A stretch of DNA of 43,321 nucleotides, taken from contig PBWV01000003.1 in assembly GCA_002728255.1 (NCBI GenBank), forward strand, positions 1 to 43,321. The letters run 5' to 3'. The position numbers were made by a program, and so were the translations under genes. The notes under the pieces are model-generated. The model was not told the DNA's origin. It did not search any database and saw only the letters and a program-made list of their open reading frames with translations. This DNA comes from Rhodospirillaceae bacterium. GTDB lineage: Bacteria > Pseudomonadota > Alphaproteobacteria > UBA7887. This document shows positions 1 through 6,002 of this stretch, piece by piece; the first letter of the stretch is position 1; each line of letters starts with the position of its first letter.

Positions 1-22
1 TGGACCTAAACCCATTGTTTAG
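1..22 (+). CDS. 3' end of a second DUF805 gene (cut by window edge)
   Basis: Bases 2-22 read G-P-K-P-I-V-stop. These are exactly the last six codons and stop of the complete DUF805 gene at 3268-3648, and the identity continues for 69 bases past the stop. I infer that the left edge cuts through the end of a second, probably duplicated, DUF805 membrane-protein gene. Only six residues are visible, so nothing can be said about the rest. Confidence 0.55.
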
Positions 23-91
23 GCGTTATGAAATAACTACTGGGATTCTGCCCGTGAATGTGTCGTGAGAGATTACAAAGGTTGTTGAGTA
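1..91 (+). repeat. 91-bp perfect direct repeat, left copy
   Basis: Every base of 1-91 matches 3627-3717 in the same orientation. Identity stops at base 92 (a here, g at 3718). The repeat covers the last DUF805 codons and the spacer up to the start codon of the MORN-repeat gene in the right copy. In this left copy the spacer runs instead into the end of the minus-strand gene at 106-474. The true left end lies outside the window, so the repeat may be longer. Confidence 0.97.
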
Positions 92-105
92 AGTAGACCT
101 AGTTC

Positions 106-474
106 TTAATTAGAAAACCCAAAATCACTCATCAGAATAGTCTTATCGACAACGTCCATACTGAAGTCGGACCACACCTCTGGATACTCTCGTTTTAATA
201 GTTCCTCCTTTGCCAATCTCTTCTTCAAGATTGAATGGACATGAACACCTCTGAACCGTTTTCCACGCACAGTCAGGTATCCCTTCTTATTTAACCCCTC
301 GGCAATGGCATTAAAGGTCATTCCTTGCTCTCGATACTCAGAGATGGTCTGATAAAGGAATAGTTGGTATGAGGAATAGTGATTTCCAGTGAGGGCAGGG
401 GATCGATAAGTGATGGTGAAGTTGAAGGTTAGGTCAGTATTTTTTAATGCACCCCTACACCGTACAAATGCCAC
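106..474 (-). CDS. Small protein with recombinase-like helix-turn-helix segment
   Basis: The protein has 122 residues. Around residues 50-85 it resembles the C-terminal DNA-binding part of large serine recombinases: a predicted helix, then the pattern MTFNAIAEGLNKKGY, then T-x-RGKRF and VHSILKKR. There is no catalytic resolvase domain, so it is not a working recombinase on its own. I recall similar stand-alone proteins of about 120 residues, with the same YRSPAL and NHYSSYQLFLYQ patterns, in marine alphaproteobacteria, but know no function for them. Its 3' end lies just past the left repeat. The start used is a GTG without a clear Shine-Dalgarno; a later start is possible. Confidence 0.6.
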   Translation of the reverse strand: MAFVRCRGALKNTDLTFNFTITYRSPALTGNHYSSYQLFLYQTISEYREQGMTFNAIAEGLNKKGYLTVRGKRFRGVHVHSILKKRLAKEELLKREYPEVWSDFSMDVVDKTILMSDFGFSN

Positions 475-1344: not shown

Positions 1345-1440
1345 TTTATTGGTATTCCCTGATTTCTCTCAATGTGTCATCATTCTCGTATGAAAAACCT
1401 GACCGCCACCATCTGCCTAATGATTGCCGTGCTTCTTGGA
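1345..1440 (+). repeat. Leader module copy A (5' UTR plus signal-peptide codons)
   Basis: This 96-base stretch, from TTTATTGGTATTCCC through the first 17 codons of the 1390 gene, matches 3132-3227 at 83 of 96 positions with no gap (counted by hand). Its coding part also matches 2376-2426 at 44 of 51 positions. The proteins that follow are unrelated. The untranslated part has no obvious Shine-Dalgarno sequence. Confidence 0.9.
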
Positions 1441-2190
1441 AGTGCGGGGGTCAGTTGGAGTGCTGATTTCGAAAAATCATTGCGGGTACTCTATGAAGAT
1501 TTAACGCCCGATCAACGATTAATTATTAAGTCATTACCACTACGGCGTATTGAATATCCTCAACCTGCGGGTACTAAGTATCAAGGTATATTTATAGACA
1601 AAGTGTGTGGCGATCAAGGTTACGGTACTGGTGGCATACTCGAATTGGATGATGGCGAGATGTGCTTTGATTTAGAAAATGGTGAGTACGGTTTTGGATG
1701 TTTAGAGAGAAGAATTTATTCTGGCGGTAGTGGCGATGTACTGCGTTATGGACCTTGGGTCGGTCGGAATGGTGAATTACGGTTTTTTGATAATGGAGGT
1801 TTTGAGGTAATTCCGACAAATAAAGAGATATTCGCTTTGTTCGTTTGCGCTTCCTCTAACGCAGAAATAACCCGCCTATTGCAAAATGCAAAAACAGAGT
1901 TTCTTCGACTTGCTAAGAAGGAAGATGCTGCCGCCATGTATAGGTTAGGTTGGTTGGATCAATTTTTACGAAGGAAATTTTCCCGCGCGGCAGAGTGGTA
2001 CGAAAAATCGATGTATCTAGGTAACAAAAATTCGAAAGAGGCACTTAGCATGATGTGCAACGATGCCAATGGGGACAAAAATGGCAATTTCCGTTGGGGA
2101 TCGTTCGCGGATTATCCGGGACGGACAGAGTCGTATGCTGACGTTAAGAGAGTATTACGTCATTGTAATTTTGCGGAAAAATCAGATTAG
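1390..2190 (+). CDS. Secreted protein of unknown function with Sel1-like C-terminal part
   Basis: The protein has 266 residues from ATG 1390. This start is preferred over the in-frame ATG at 1372 because it matches the start of the reused leader MKNLTATICLMIAVLLG. Signal cleavage is likely at VSWS/ADF. Residues from about 45 to 150 are rich in G, Y and W and match no family I know; they hold several cysteines (VCGDQG, MCFD, GCLERR). Near residues 185-220 the text AMYRLGWLDQFLRRKFSRAA with AEWYEKSMYLGN looks like one Sel1/TPR-type helical repeat. I recall the same leader in front of multi-repeat Sel1 proteins in marine alphaproteobacteria, so this may be a diverged member. Likely periplasmic. 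Confidence 0.7.
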   Translation: MKNLTATICLMIAVLLGSAGVSWSADFEKSLRVLYEDLTPDQRLIIKSLPLRRIEYPQPAGTKYQGIFIDKVCGDQGYGTGGILELDDGEMCFDLENGEYGFGCLERRIYSGGSGDVLRYGPWVGRNGELRFFDNGGFEVIPTNKEIFALFVCASSNAEITRLLQNAKTEFLRLAKKEDAAAMYRLGWLDQFLRRKFSRAAEWYEKSMYLGNKNSKEALSMMCNDANGDKNGNFRWGSFADYPGRTESYADVKRVLRHCNFAEKSD

Positions 2191-2375
2191 GTTCCTATAG
2201 GACACATACTAAAGGAACACCGATGGATATCTGCGTGGTTGCAATTGAGACATAGGAAATGTTGCTGGGTTGAGACTTGCCCGGCGCTGCGCAAACATCC
2301 ACCCGTCTCCCACCCAGAACTCCACACGCCCCATTTTCTCTACCCATACCGAATATTCTCTGGCAGAATTTCCCT

Positions 2376-2426
2376 ATGAAACACCTGACCACCACCTTCT
2401 GTCTGACGATTACCGTGCTTCTTGGA
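2376..2426 (+). repeat. Leader module copy B (signal-peptide codons)
   Basis: The first 17 codons of the 2376 gene match copy A (1390-1440) at 44 of 51 positions and copy C (3177-3227) at 44 of 51 positions. Unlike copies A and C, the upstream untranslated part is not conserved here. The left boundary of shared sequence therefore falls at or near the ATG. Confidence 0.85.
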
Positions 2427-2828
2427 AGTATTATGTGTATTCAAAATGCATTTGCAAAAGATCTCTTCCTGTATGGCGGAAGCAATCACGATGAGTTTCT
2501 TGGGTGTCTAGTTTGTAATGAGTTTGATGGAGATAGTGTATGTAATGGATTTGGTAGATATGGGAATGAGTTTGGATCCAATATGTGGAATGAATTTTCG
2601 TCTCCTTATGGAAATGAATTTAGCAGTTGTAGTCCTTGGAACGAATTCTCGACCAGCACATGCGTTCCTGTCTTAGTCGATCAGCAGGGAAATTTTTATG
2701 GATACTTTACCACCAATACAGCAAGAACTGACGCCGTAGATTTCGCAGATGCACTATACAGAATATTCAGGGGACATGATGGTGACGTCGAAGCAGTCAG
2801 GAAAACGTTGTGTGATTTATTGAATTAA
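2376..2828 (+). CDS. Secreted cysteine- and NEF-repeat protein
   Basis: The protein has 150 residues, with signal peptide MKHLTTTFCLTITVLLG and likely cleavage near NAFA/KD. Residues about 37-90 form a degenerate repeat built on the tripeptide NEF: HDEF, CNEFD, CNGFG, YGNEFG, WNEFSS, YGNEFSS, WNEFST. C-x-x-C (CLVC) occurs once. The opening LYGGSNHDEFLGC and the closing PVLVDQQGNFYGYF match a bacterial family I remember with the pattern Y-G-x-x-x-S-x-x-S-x-W-N, whose function I do not know. The C-terminal 30 residues (DAVDFADALYRIF onward) look particular to this copy. Start chosen at the leader ATG; the upstream open frame is judged non-coding. Confidence 0.75.
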   Translation: MKHLTTTFCLTITVLLGSIMCIQNAFAKDLFLYGGSNHDEFLGCLVCNEFDGDSVCNGFGRYGNEFGSNMWNEFSSPYGNEFSSCSPWNEFSTSTCVPVLVDQQGNFYGYFTTNTARTDAVDFADALYRIFRGHDGDVEAVRKTLCDLLN

Positions 2829-3176
2829 TGATTTTTACCAACAGATGATAAAGTGAATGGGTATTTACTACCTCAGTGCGGATTCCATTTTTAGAGAAGG
2901 CATGGATGTTGAAAAAGCAGCAGATATGGCAAGGAAAGTTGTGGAAAATATGTATAATTAAGAATTCATATATTAAGTTTTTGTGGGGGTTTAGGAACCC
3001 CTATCACCAATATGGACTGTTCTAACATAAACAACCTCTGTCGATTAAAAGCGTTGATTTTCTGCGGTTTTTACCCCTAAAAATACCCTCCGACAGAGTG
3101 TCCTGTAGGGTGGTGAGTCTGATATAGAGGATTTATCGGTATTCCCTGATTTCCTCCAATCTGTCATCATTCTCGT
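2829..3176. other. Mostly non-coding spacer with gene remnants
   Basis: No full gene is visible. The stretch includes the 34-codon ORF at 2857-2961. It also has a 6-bp inverted repeat GGGGTT/AACCCC at 2986-3001 with no T-run, and an imperfect palindrome near 3086-3114 (ACCCT...ACAG with CTGT...AGGGT). The untranslated half of leader copy C begins at 3132. Confidence 0.5.
2857..2961 (+). pseudogene. 34-codon ORF, possibly a gene fragment
   Basis: ATG 2857 opens 34 codons, starting MGIYYLSADSIF and continuing with a charged, probably helical stretch (DVEKAADMARKVVENMY). An in-frame TGA sits immediately before the ATG. The composition is protein-like, and it reads as the C-terminus of a longer secreted protein, but I do not recognise the family and no Shine-Dalgarno is clear. 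It could be a tail left by the recombination that produced the neighbouring leader copies. Confidence 0.25.
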
Positions 3177-3227
3177 ATGAAACACCTGACCACCACAGTC
3201 TGCCTGATTCTTGCCGTGCTTCTTGGG
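3132..3227 (+). repeat. Leader module copy C (5' UTR plus leader codons)
   Basis: This is the second full-length copy of the 96-base module, matching 1345-1440 at 83 of 96 positions. It includes the untranslated TTTATCGGTATTCCC block and the ATG plus 17 codons. After the shared part the frame reads a glycine run and stops at 3266. Confidence 0.9.
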
Positions 3228-3266
3228 GGTGGGGGTGGTAAATGTACAATACGAAGGGGCGACTGA
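3177..3266 (+). CDS. 29-residue leader peptide ending just before the DUF805 start
   Basis: ATG 3177 starts the reused leader (MKHLTTTVCLILAVLLG), which runs into GGGGK and stops with TGA at 3264-3266. The ATG of the DUF805 gene is at 3268, one base later. The hydrophobic core is intact, but there is no cleavage site and no mature protein. It may simply be a leader whose downstream gene was replaced. If translated, it would place ribosomes directly at the DUF805 start and could couple the two. No experimental support is visible in the sequence. Confidence 0.4.
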   Translation: MKHLTTTVCLILAVLLGGGGGKCTIRRGD

Positions 3267-3267
3267 C

Positions 3268-3648
3268 ATGAACCTTTTTGATGCTGTAAAAGTATGTTTT
3301 GTAAAATACACAAATTTTTCTGATAGAGCGTCTAGGTCAGAATTTTGGTTATTTACGTTATTTAACGCTATTGTAAGTTTGATGTTGATGTTTCTTGATC
3401 CATTGATCGCAGGGGAGTCGTTCCTGGATTACGATGAAATATTTCCGCCTTTATCTACTATTTTTTTACTGGCCATAATTATTCCAGCGATTTCTGTATC
3501 AGTAAGACGCCTTCATGATGTTAACAGATCGGGATGGTGGTTTCTTATCGAATTGACCATCATTGGAGTACTATTCCCGATCCTATACTGGTGCTGCAAG
3601 AAAGGGGATGAAGGAGAAAATAGGTTTGGACCTAAACCCATTGTTTAG
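3268..3648 (+). CDS. DUF805 family inner-membrane protein
   Basis: The protein has 126 residues from ATG 3268, preceded by AAGGGG seven bases upstream; the earlier in-frame start at 3211 lies inside the leader and is rejected. The family hallmarks are present: an N-terminal amphipathic part with FSDRASRSEFW, hydrophobic segments at roughly residues 30-45, 60-80 and 95-112, the SVRRLHDVNRSGWW loop between them, and the closing GENRFGPKP. DUF805 proteins are small membrane proteins of unknown role. The last codons and the downstream spacer are repeated exactly at the left edge of the window, so at least two copies exist. Confidence 0.88.
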   Translation: MNLFDAVKVCFVKYTNFSDRASRSEFWLFTLFNAIVSLMLMFLDPLIAGESFLDYDEIFPPLSTIFLLAIIIPAISVSVRRLHDVNRSGWWFLIELTIIGVLFPILYWCCKKGDEGENRFGPKPIV

Positions 3649-3717
3649 GCGTTATGAAATAACTACTGGGATTCTGCCCGTGAATGTGTCGTGAGAGATT
3701 ACAAAGGTTGTTGAGTA
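3627..3717 (+). repeat. 91-bp perfect direct repeat, right copy
   Basis: Identical to 1-91. It covers the last eight codons and stop of the DUF805 gene and the spacer, and ends two bases before the ATG of the MORN-repeat gene at 3719. The two copies enclose 3.5 kb that holds all copies of the leader module. Confidence 0.97.
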
Positions 3718-3718
3718 G

Positions 3719-4207
3719 ATGAAACATATTCTGGCACCCATGCTCCTACTGGTCTTTCTGTCCCCCGCACTTGTATTAGGTGAAGAGCTTAGGATTGATG
3801 ATTTGGTTGAGCGAGAAGGTATTTATTACAAAAAATTCAGCGATGTTCCATGCTCTGAGAAGAAAACAAACCAAAGAGAACAAGCCTTGAAGGATTTTGT
3901 ATTCTATTGTCCTTATGCTGAAAAGGGCGAAAATGAACAGCTGCAGGGCGCGGGTCACATGACGACTGGAGAAAGGGAGGGTCCTTGGATCAAGTATCAC
4001 GAGAATGGGCAATTAGAAAGCAAAGGATACATAAAGAATGGAATGTTGGAAGGTCCTTGGGTTGGTTATCATAAAAATGGCCAGTTAAGTATTAGAGGCA
4101 CCTACAAGGACGGGAGGCGAGTGGGGATCTGGATACAATACTATGAAGATGGAACGATACACGAGAAATACACGGGTATTTTCGAGAATGGTGAAAAGGT
4201 TAAATAG
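3719..4207 (+). CDS. Secreted MORN-repeat protein (YwqK-like)
   Basis: The protein has 162 residues. The signal peptide MKHILAPMLLLVFLSPALVLG is probably cut before EELRIDDLV. The front of the mature protein has the family text LVEREGIYYKKFSDVP. From about residue 84, MORN-type beta-hairpin units follow: REGPWIKYHENGQLESKGY, LEGPWVGYHKNGQLSIRGTY, RVGIWIQYYEDGTI. The end YTGIFENGEK is typical. Such proteins are often labelled YwqK-family antitoxin, but no toxin gene lies next to it, and I regard that label as uninformative. Residues 44-80 lack the repeat pattern and contain two cysteines. The gene starts two bases after the right direct repeat. Confidence 0.85.
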   Translation: MKHILAPMLLLVFLSPALVLGEELRIDDLVEREGIYYKKFSDVPCSEKKTNQREQALKDFVFYCPYAEKGENEQLQGAGHMTTGEREGPWIKYHENGQLESKGYIKNGMLEGPWVGYHKNGQLSIRGTYKDGRRVGIWIQYYEDGTIHEKYTGIFENGEKVK

Positions 4208-4210
4208 GGG

Positions 4211-4282
4211 ATGAAACACATCTCCACCCCCGCACCCCTAAGGATTTTCCTGTTCATCAAACTATCCCTTAAACATTGTTGA
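4211..4282 (+). pseudogene. Truncated leader of a second MORN-type gene
   Basis: Just after the MORN gene stop, ATG 4211 opens 23 codons (MKHISTPAPLRIFLF, then IKLSLKHC) that resemble the leader of the 3719 gene at both DNA and protein level, sharing MKH and the P-x-L-x-x-x-x-F-L spacing. The hydrophobic core is broken by charged residues and the frame ends at TGA 4282 with no mature part. Best read as the remnant of a tandem copy. Confidence 0.45.
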
Positions 4283-4566: not shown

Positions 4567-4688
4567 AATTTTCTCCTAATTATTAAAATACAGTAGAGTT
4601 GTTCGTGAACTAGAGGTTAAATCTACTATTGAATTGTAAAAATGGAATATTGCTCAGAGAATTTCTGATGTCTATGGTGTAGAAGTTG

Positions 4689-5534
4689 ATGTCGGTACAG
4701 CGTGAACTACAGTGTTTTAAGTGGACCGGGTCTAAATGGTTGATAGCAAATAATATTATCCCTTTGATTCCAGGTAATTGTGAAAACTACATTGAACCCT
4801 TCTTAGGAGGGGGAGCGCTGTTATTGAGTAACGCAAAAAGATTTAAAAGGATTACTGGAGCAGACTTATATCAACCTTTAATAAATCTTTGGAAAGTGCT
4901 TAGAGACAAACCTCAGGAAGTTATTGAACGTTATGATGTTTTGTGGGGCAAACTTCGCCAAGAGGTCTTGGAAATTGATTTAGGTAGAGACAAAGGAAAA
5001 AACTACCCGAAAATATTCTATAAATGCCGGGAAGAGTTTAACCGAACCAAAGACCCAGCACTTTTGCTCTTTCTATCTAAAACCTGCTTGAATGGAGTAA
5101 TAAGGTTTTCCAAAGGTGGGCAATTTAACAATTCTTTCCATCATGGAAGACTCGGTCAAAAACCTGAAGCATTTCGCAAATGTGTTATGAATGTCTCACA
5201 AGTCATAAAGGGCGTTAATTTTCTTTCCGCAGATGCGTTGGAGATAGTTCAAAATGCCAACGAGAAAGATTTTATCTTTTTAGATCCTCCTTATTTTGCC
5301 TCAAAAAATAGATACATCGAGAATTATACACTTGAAAATTTGGAGACACTATTGGAACACCTGAATAGTAAGGGAGCGAAATGGATATGTACCTACGACT
5401 CACGGAACGATGTCAAATTAAACCCTAGTTTGTTCCGTCAGCATCTACTGAGTGATGCGTATCAGTCACGGATTAGAAGGACAAGCGGTCAAGGTGTTCA
5501 AAGCACTTCGGAATCAATCTACATGAACTATTAG
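4689..5534 (+). CDS. D12-class DNA adenine N6-methyltransferase (Dam-like), orphan
   Basis: The protein has 281 residues from ATG 4689; a TTG directly before it (4686) is the alternative start. The class hallmarks are in order: the N-terminal KWTGSK (about residues 11-16) and the SAM-binding EPFLGGG (36-42), which corresponds to the family's F-x-G-x-G motif, then the catalytic DPPY (199-202). FNRTKDPALLLFLSKTCLNG and RFSKGGQFN match the family's target-recognition region. It should transfer a methyl group from SAM to N6 of adenine in a short site, but the site cannot be read from the sequence. No restriction enzyme gene is adjacent, so it is an orphan, phage-type methylase in an island. Confidence 0.92.
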   Translation: MSVQRELQCFKWTGSKWLIANNIIPLIPGNCENYIEPFLGGGALLLSNAKRFKRITGADLYQPLINLWKVLRDKPQEVIERYDVLWGKLRQEVLEIDLGRDKGKNYPKIFYKCREEFNRTKDPALLLFLSKTCLNGVIRFSKGGQFNNSFHHGRLGQKPEAFRKCVMNVSQVIKGVNFLSADALEIVQNANEKDFIFLDPPYFASKNRYIENYTLENLETLLEHLNSKGAKWICTYDSRNDVKLNPSLFRQHLLSDAYQSRIRRTSGQGVQSTSESIYMNY

Positions 5535-5771
5535 CCGAACGGATAAACTCTGCAATGTTGTCGCAAAGGACAGTAATAGGAAATCTCTTCAGACGGCTGT
5601 ATTATTGTAACCAGGGAAAAAAGATCTAGTTTTGTCTATCCAAGATGGATTAGTAACCCTAAAACATTACATTTAGTCTTCAATAAGAGGGTATAAGAAA
5701 AGTTCCTATGATAAGTGGTATTTAATGTTCACAATAAGGTTATGGCGCGGTAATTTTGATATCAGGAAACG

Positions 5772-6002
5772 CTATAAGAAAAAAAATCGGATTATCAGTG
5801 CAAGTGCCATCATGACAAAGAAGTGTAAAAAAAATACTTTCCACCTGTCCATAAAGGGGAAGTTAGTTAGATGATCCTTAAAAGTCTTGGAATACCTTTT
5901 CCAGCTTATAAGCTTCCTAAAATAATCCGCGAGGTAAAAAACACTCGCAAACAATGCCGGTATAATAATTGCCCAGAGTAGGGGTCCTTCCCACCAAATC
6001 AT
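5772..6002 (-). CDS. Small two-span membrane protein, unknown
   Basis: From ATG 6002 the 76-residue product has two hydrophobic spans (about residues 7-24 and 58-74) joined by a basic loop rich in K, R and aromatic residues. The first span starts MIWWEGPLLWAIIIPALF and the chain ends ALIIRFFFL. I do not recognise a family. The ATG overlaps the stop of the short ORF at 5999-6181 in the ATGA arrangement, which hints at coupled translation. The longer in-frame start at 6086 would add a stretch without membrane character and is less likely. Confidence 0.45.
   Translation of the reverse strand: MIWWEGPLLWAIIIPALFASVFYLADYFRKLISWKRYSKTFKDHLTNFPFMDRWKVFFLHFFVMMALALIIRFFFL

Follow-up and report, generated by a model that had tools for sequence, protein, structure and literature searches.

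A 5' block of Sel1-repeat genes with a predicted promoter and signal peptide precedes unrelated genes in related bacteria

In the window, the 43,321-nucleotide stretch of Rhodospirillaceae DNA analyzed here, three copies of a short module precede different genes. Judged by its sequence, this module is the 5' end of a Sel1-repeat gene family, and a tail of ~43 bases found behind some captured genes is the 3' end of the same family. The reading that we favor, with a probability of roughly 60%, is that this ~110-base block carries a predicted leaderless promoter and a Sec-type signal peptide and that recombination among Sel1 genes captures foreign genes behind it. The Sel1-repeat family would be one that spreads horizontally, duplicates in tandem, and disperses. 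Recombination among its members and neighboring DNA would remove the Sel1 interior and leave foreign genes between the 5' module and the 3' tail, with Sel1 genes serving as sockets. A gene captured in frame would at once receive both promoter and signal peptide, as may have happened for the NEF, M23, histidine phosphatase, MORN/trypsin, and hydrolase proteins, and one captured out of frame would receive the promoter only, as may be the case for DUF805. We infer recombination as the agent and the order of these events, along with the transcription start and export.

The relevant elements of the window are given below. The promoter of copy A was assigned from positions conserved across module copies.

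47-92, + strand: second Sel1 tail copy, where the contig starts, within the repeat 1-91
106-474, - strand: gene with only a PF07508 (Recombinase) domain (Pfam E = 4.9e-5); its 3' end abuts the tail at 47-92
1339-1389, + strand: upstream part of copy A; predicted -35 TTCCCT at 1355-1360, 17-base spacer
1378-1383, + strand: -10 hexamer of copy A; extended -10 TGT-CATCAT, predicted transcription start at 1390
1390-2190, + strand: gene A; leader MKNLTATICLMIAVLLGSAGVSWS, mature part beginning ADFEKS; weakly Sel1-like
2316-2375, + strand: upstream part of copy B; predicted -35 TACCCA at 2341-2346 and -10 CAGAAT at 2364-2369
2376-2828, + strand: gene B; leader fused at about codon 18 to a NEF-repeat protein
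3126-3176, + strand: upstream part of copy C, of the subtype of copy A; predicted -35 TTCCCT at 3142-3147 and -10 CATCAT at 3165-3170
3177-3266, + strand: leader remnant of copy C; dead-end ORF MKHLTTTVCLILAVLLGGGGGKCTIRRGD, 29 codons, stop at 3264-3266
3268-3648, + strand: DUF805 gene (Pfam PF05656, E = 3.1e-32), between the leader remnant and the Sel1 tail
3673-3718, + strand: Sel1 3'-end remnant behind DUF805; reads ECVVRDYKGC, then stop

Over 51 coding bases, the leader copies at 1390, 2376, and 3177 agree at 44 (A-B), 43 (A-C), and 43 (B-C) positions. Copies A and C, whose identity begins at 1339, also have 40/45 upstream bases in common, giving 83/96 in total. The counts in the original prediction (43 to 44 of 51 pairwise and 83 of 96 for A and C) proved exact on recount. 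It had confined the shared untranslated part to two copies, which describes A and C correctly, but the DNA upstream of copy B is also module DNA, of a subtype that differs from that of A and C and is common in other families (window 2316-2378 is 88% identical to the upstream element in relatives; E = 2.8e-16). With copy A as the query, the whole 2.55-Mb genome (53 contigs, 99% complete) yielded copy C (E = 1e-28) and copy B (E = 5e-13). Because the next genome match falls to E = 0.07, the similarity of the three copies is not due to chance. A 30-residue leader query of the whole genome retrieved the same three copies and no others, all of them inside the first 3.3 kb of contig C3, the start of which is window base 1. 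The suggested genome-wide leader family is thus not present in the source genome, which has three copies only, one of them dead and all at a contig end.

An exact 91-base repeat (window 1-91 = 3627-3717) places the contig start within a second copy of the DUF805 3' end and Sel1 tail. The assembly therefore probably broke there, and the true copy number in this genome is at least the one observed; with several modules at contig ends, module counts in general are lower bounds. Directly after the Sel1 tail behind DUF805 begins a MORN_2-repeat protein with a different MKH-type leader (window 3719-4207), with a short MKHISTP fragment downstream of it (4211-4280); the resemblance to the module is confined to the first bases. 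A D12-class adenine DNA methyltransferase gene (4686-5534; Pfam E = 2e-32) adjoins the array. An Rfam scan of the window retrieved nothing.

The boundary between leader and mature protein is less sharp than first described. Identity of A and C ends at about codon 20, and that of copy B ends at codon 18, ahead of its own c-region; across relatives, leader conservation fades over roughly codons 15 to 26. Because the point of joining to foreign proteins ranges from about codon 15 to codon 26, the end of conservation does not exactly match the cleavage site, and the claim that conservation stops where the mature protein begins does not hold exactly. The designation of the protein after copy A as Sel1-like survives in part: it retains the ADFEK start typical of Sel1 proteins, but its match to Pfam Sel1 is below the cutoff (E = 0.028). 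When searched against the genome contigs, protein A matched one relative, a Sel1 protein. Pfam assigned no family to protein B.

A search of the kind proposed at the outset, which found only the three copies in the source genome, was productive in relatives, with 54 leader copies in 30 genomes after duplicates were collapsed. Their distribution among the searched relatives is patchy. By protein search, 3/9 genomes of the genome's own family were positive; by DNA search, 13/385 genomes of a class sample were positive, and individual families ranged from 9/13 (f105) and 10/24 (f103) to 1/11 (f114). The open frame has at least 100 codons in 29 of the 54 copies and fewer than 60 codons in 24. Most of the long in-frame fusions are Sel1-repeat proteins (PF08238, E = 6e-45 and 2e-25 on two of them). 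The other partners comprise MORN plus trypsin, MORN, alpha/beta hydrolase, and dienelactone hydrolase domains and several proteins without a Pfam family. Histidine phosphatase fusions occur in two families of bacteria, and M23 peptidase fusions occur in two genomes. The central claim of the original prediction, that leader DNA stands before nonhomologous mature proteins, is thus borne out in relatives; rather than all proving homologous by profile search, as it had considered, the downstream proteins belong to different Pfam families.

In IMG/VR, the module was found on one contig (L115), which may be bacterial. It holds five leader copies within 5 kb: two lie before Sel1 proteins, one before a MORN/trypsin protein, one before a protein that has no clear family, and one before a broken Sel1 gene. 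On the same contig, a Sel1 protein at 4805-5863 resembles a fusion of two adjacent Sel1 genes, with the tail of the first gene internal. A 140-base module query gave no match in the plasmid and phage collections.

The second line of evidence concerns the 3' end. Sel1 proteins of the module family end in ECVRKKYKGC, and the corresponding ~43-base piece lies behind DUF805 (window and G001), M23 (G413 and G415), and phosphatase (G412) genes, as well as behind other genes in G397, G112, and G393. It was not detected behind most foreign recipients. In the complete genome G306, at least seven dispersed Sel1 genes with a different leader lie between the module promoter and the tail, so promoter and leader are separable. 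The notion of a free-standing secretion leader gives way to a conserved block that, by sequence, forms the 5' end (predicted promoter plus signal peptide) of a family of Sel1 genes. Two of the G306 units (L169 4995-6367 and L170 4590-5962) are identical over 1,373 bases and lie ~3 Mb apart as that contig is numbered; because G306 is a single contig, these identical units at distant loci point to recent dispersal of Sel1 genes.

Genes for recombination enzymes lie near some of these elements. At seven G306 loci (L165 to L171), a Sel1 tail is followed ~42 to 66 bases on by a convergent serine-resolvase C-terminus, and the same was observed in G110, G393, and G417. The PF07508-only gene recurs beside leaders or tails in G000, G001, G393, and G402 (window 106-474 on the - strand, L018 6754-7050, L119, and L075) and is a possible partner of the module. 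At L017 123-243, immediately upstream of a leader-bearing Sel1 gene, a Sel1 tail is joined to the end of an apparent transposase reading frame.

These arrangements raise the question of whether the Sel1-derived ends are themselves recombination sites for a serine recombinase, with site-specific capture by a dedicated and previously undescribed mobile gene-cassette system. Any gene entering such a cassette would gain transcription and export at once. Several features fit: the tail has almost the same left edge in a number of foreign contexts, contiguous tail-promoter-leader junctions exist, and an M23 unit appears to have moved between its ATG and the tail stop codon (the G413 and G415 units are highly similar over that interval and have unrelated flanks on both sides). 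The ends of serine-recombinase genes also abut tails in G306 (seven loci), G110, G393, and G417, as does a recombinase gene with another domain in the window and G001. However, for most of the other tails, no recombinase was detected in the surrounding 2 kb. No partner site resembling attC was observed, folding of the tail region was not better than that of shuffled sequence, and the upstream flanks in G306 extend past the module. We regard a dedicated system as unlikely and favor general recombination among Sel1 genes as the route of capture.

The promoter prediction rests on positional conservation. In an ungapped alignment anchored at the ATG, the copies have in common TG at -15/-14, A at -11, T at -7, and T.CCC at -35 to -31. 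For a footprint test, we used 1,098 pairs in which the background upstream positions match no more often than random sequence (mean, 0.25). Identity among these pairs was 0.57 at -35, 0.51 at -17, 0.52 at -15, 0.59 at -14, 0.60 at -11, and 0.76 at -7, and most of the spacer was near background. This layout matches a predicted extended -10 promoter with a 17-base spacer and a start on the A of the ATG (consensus, -35 T.CCC[A/T], 17 bases, and TGn followed by [C/T]AnAnT), from which a leaderless mRNA is predicted. Common descent may account for part of the conservation, although the pairs were chosen to have unrelated background positions. A standard scan for sigma-70 consensus promoters and terminators did not report the module promoters; we retain the prediction because its basis is comparative conservation. 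Some Sel1 copies carry Shine-Dalgarno-like upstream DNA in place of the promoter element. The element also occurs without a leader, at L116 2440-2534, with a 48-base repeat block and a Sel1 tail downstream, and at L119 1843-1893.

Copy C illustrates what an out-of-frame capture may look like. The original prediction took it as the leader of DUF805, a predicted membrane protein family, and proposed that mature domains behind the module can gain export. The leader ORF instead ends after 29 codons, and the DUF805 ATG (3268) lies one base past its stop in another frame; neither the assignment nor the gain of export can be upheld. In the sister species G001, the same DUF805 gene stands behind a leader copy with TGA as codon 2. 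Because the leader is dead there and DUF805 is kept, at most the upstream part would be useful to DUF805. A role of the dead leader as a translational coupler was discarded, given that the G001 leader stops at codon 2 and DUF805 is retained.

Such cases would be expected if the module were mainly a mobile promoter and its leader codons were baggage that works as a signal peptide in some cases. Short dead-end leader ORFs make up 24/54 copies, several of them upstream of genes with their own start; a ~55-base upstream element precedes unrelated genes in several genomes; and the promoter is found without a leader (L116 and L119) or with another leader (G306). Against this account, many copies retain a complete hydrophobic core and an open frame into enzymes that would be expected to act outside the cytoplasm, and conservation is higher in the coding part than upstream of it, even where the upstream parts are unrelated. 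We therefore consider a promoter with passenger codons quite improbable, and the reading in which Sel1 genes supply both promoter and signal peptide is preferred.

That reading implies that recipients gained the leader, and the closest homologues found suggest as much. A homologue of the window NEF protein (L111; 62% identical) begins MMILRPVFIAIALSQFLVSEVAQAK, unlike MKHLTTTFCLTITVLLGSIMCIQNAFAKD, and DNA homology between the two genes is limited to the mature part. The histidine phosphatase homologue in G217, a genome of the same genus as the leader-bearing G395, has an unrelated signal peptide, and the signal peptides of the other homologues with N-termini read are likewise unrelated. From these comparisons, the leader appears to have been gained rather than lost by the NEF and phosphatase recipients. 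Leader copies of different bacterial families also use identical codons for the same residue at a frequency of 0.65 to 0.66, whereas the expectation from pooled codon usage is 0.26. The frequency is 0.64 for copies retrieved only by protein search; thus, the codon identity is not explained by DNA-based picking of copies. The mature part of Sel1 genes has raised codon identity as well (0.54), so whole Sel1 genes, beyond leaders alone, appear to have spread. Plain tandem duplication and divergence from one ancestor, with only the 5' ends of the window genes still alike, would suit three adjacent copies in the same orientation and the weak Sel1 likeness of protein A, but is very improbable given recipients of different Pfam families in relatives, the known unrelated family of DUF805, and the unrelated leader of the 62% identical NEF homologue.

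The way in which cytoplasmic or foreign proteins acquire export is usually treated as slow tinkering; the module makes the acquisition of a signal peptide by recombination directly testable, with at least two recipients from families in which the closest homologues found carry other signal peptides. In practical terms, shared N-termini in these genomes do not equal shared ancestry, dead leader copies (e.g., the one in front of DUF805) can lead gene callers astray, and assembly breaks fall at the repeats.

Our literature search for a natural signal-peptide module common to unrelated bacterial proteins, conducted with few terms in a small literature set, gave no match; several known systems are nevertheless comparable in part. 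The closest are the secreted Sel1-repeat (PF08238) proteins with an MK(N/H)LTATICL-type leader, as this family supplies both ends, the module as its 5' end and the tail as its 3' end; the difference is that unrelated genes replace the Sel1 interior in the window and several relatives. Integron gene cassettes are gene units separated by conserved sequence, arranged in arrays of varied content. Module arrays are similar in that units with varied contents are split by conserved sequence, but the module repeat carries a predicted promoter and coding sequence, and the nearby recombinases are of the serine type. An attC site was considered because GTTGAGT fits the GTTRRRY core motif, and integron membership was rejected, with no partner core site seen by eye and a folding z-score of -0.31 in the tail region.

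Sequence-variable mosaic (SVM) proteins of phytoplasmas are secreted proteins that share an N-terminal signal and otherwise differ. By comparison, the module occurs in unrelated bacteria, is unrelated in sequence, and appears together with Sel1 ends, which SVM proteins lack. The SVM family is mentioned by name in PMC9312162. Mobile promoters (Matus-Garcia, Nijveen, van Passel 2012; van Passel, Nijveen, Wahl 2014) are, as cited in PMC8049555, short repeats and presumed promoters before unrelated genes, thought to spread with horizontal transfer. The module is like them in that similar upstream DNA was found before nonhomologous genes. It differs from mobile promoters as they are outlined there in that the repeat extends into the coding region, where it provides a predicted signal peptide, and in that it would form the 5' end of a gene family that can be identified and whose 3' end is also represented. 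Finally, alphaproteobacteria such as Zymomonas mobilis are documented to have transcripts that begin at the start codon (PMC7566282); those leaderless transcripts are reported for individual genes, whereas the promoter predicted for the module would travel with a signal peptide.
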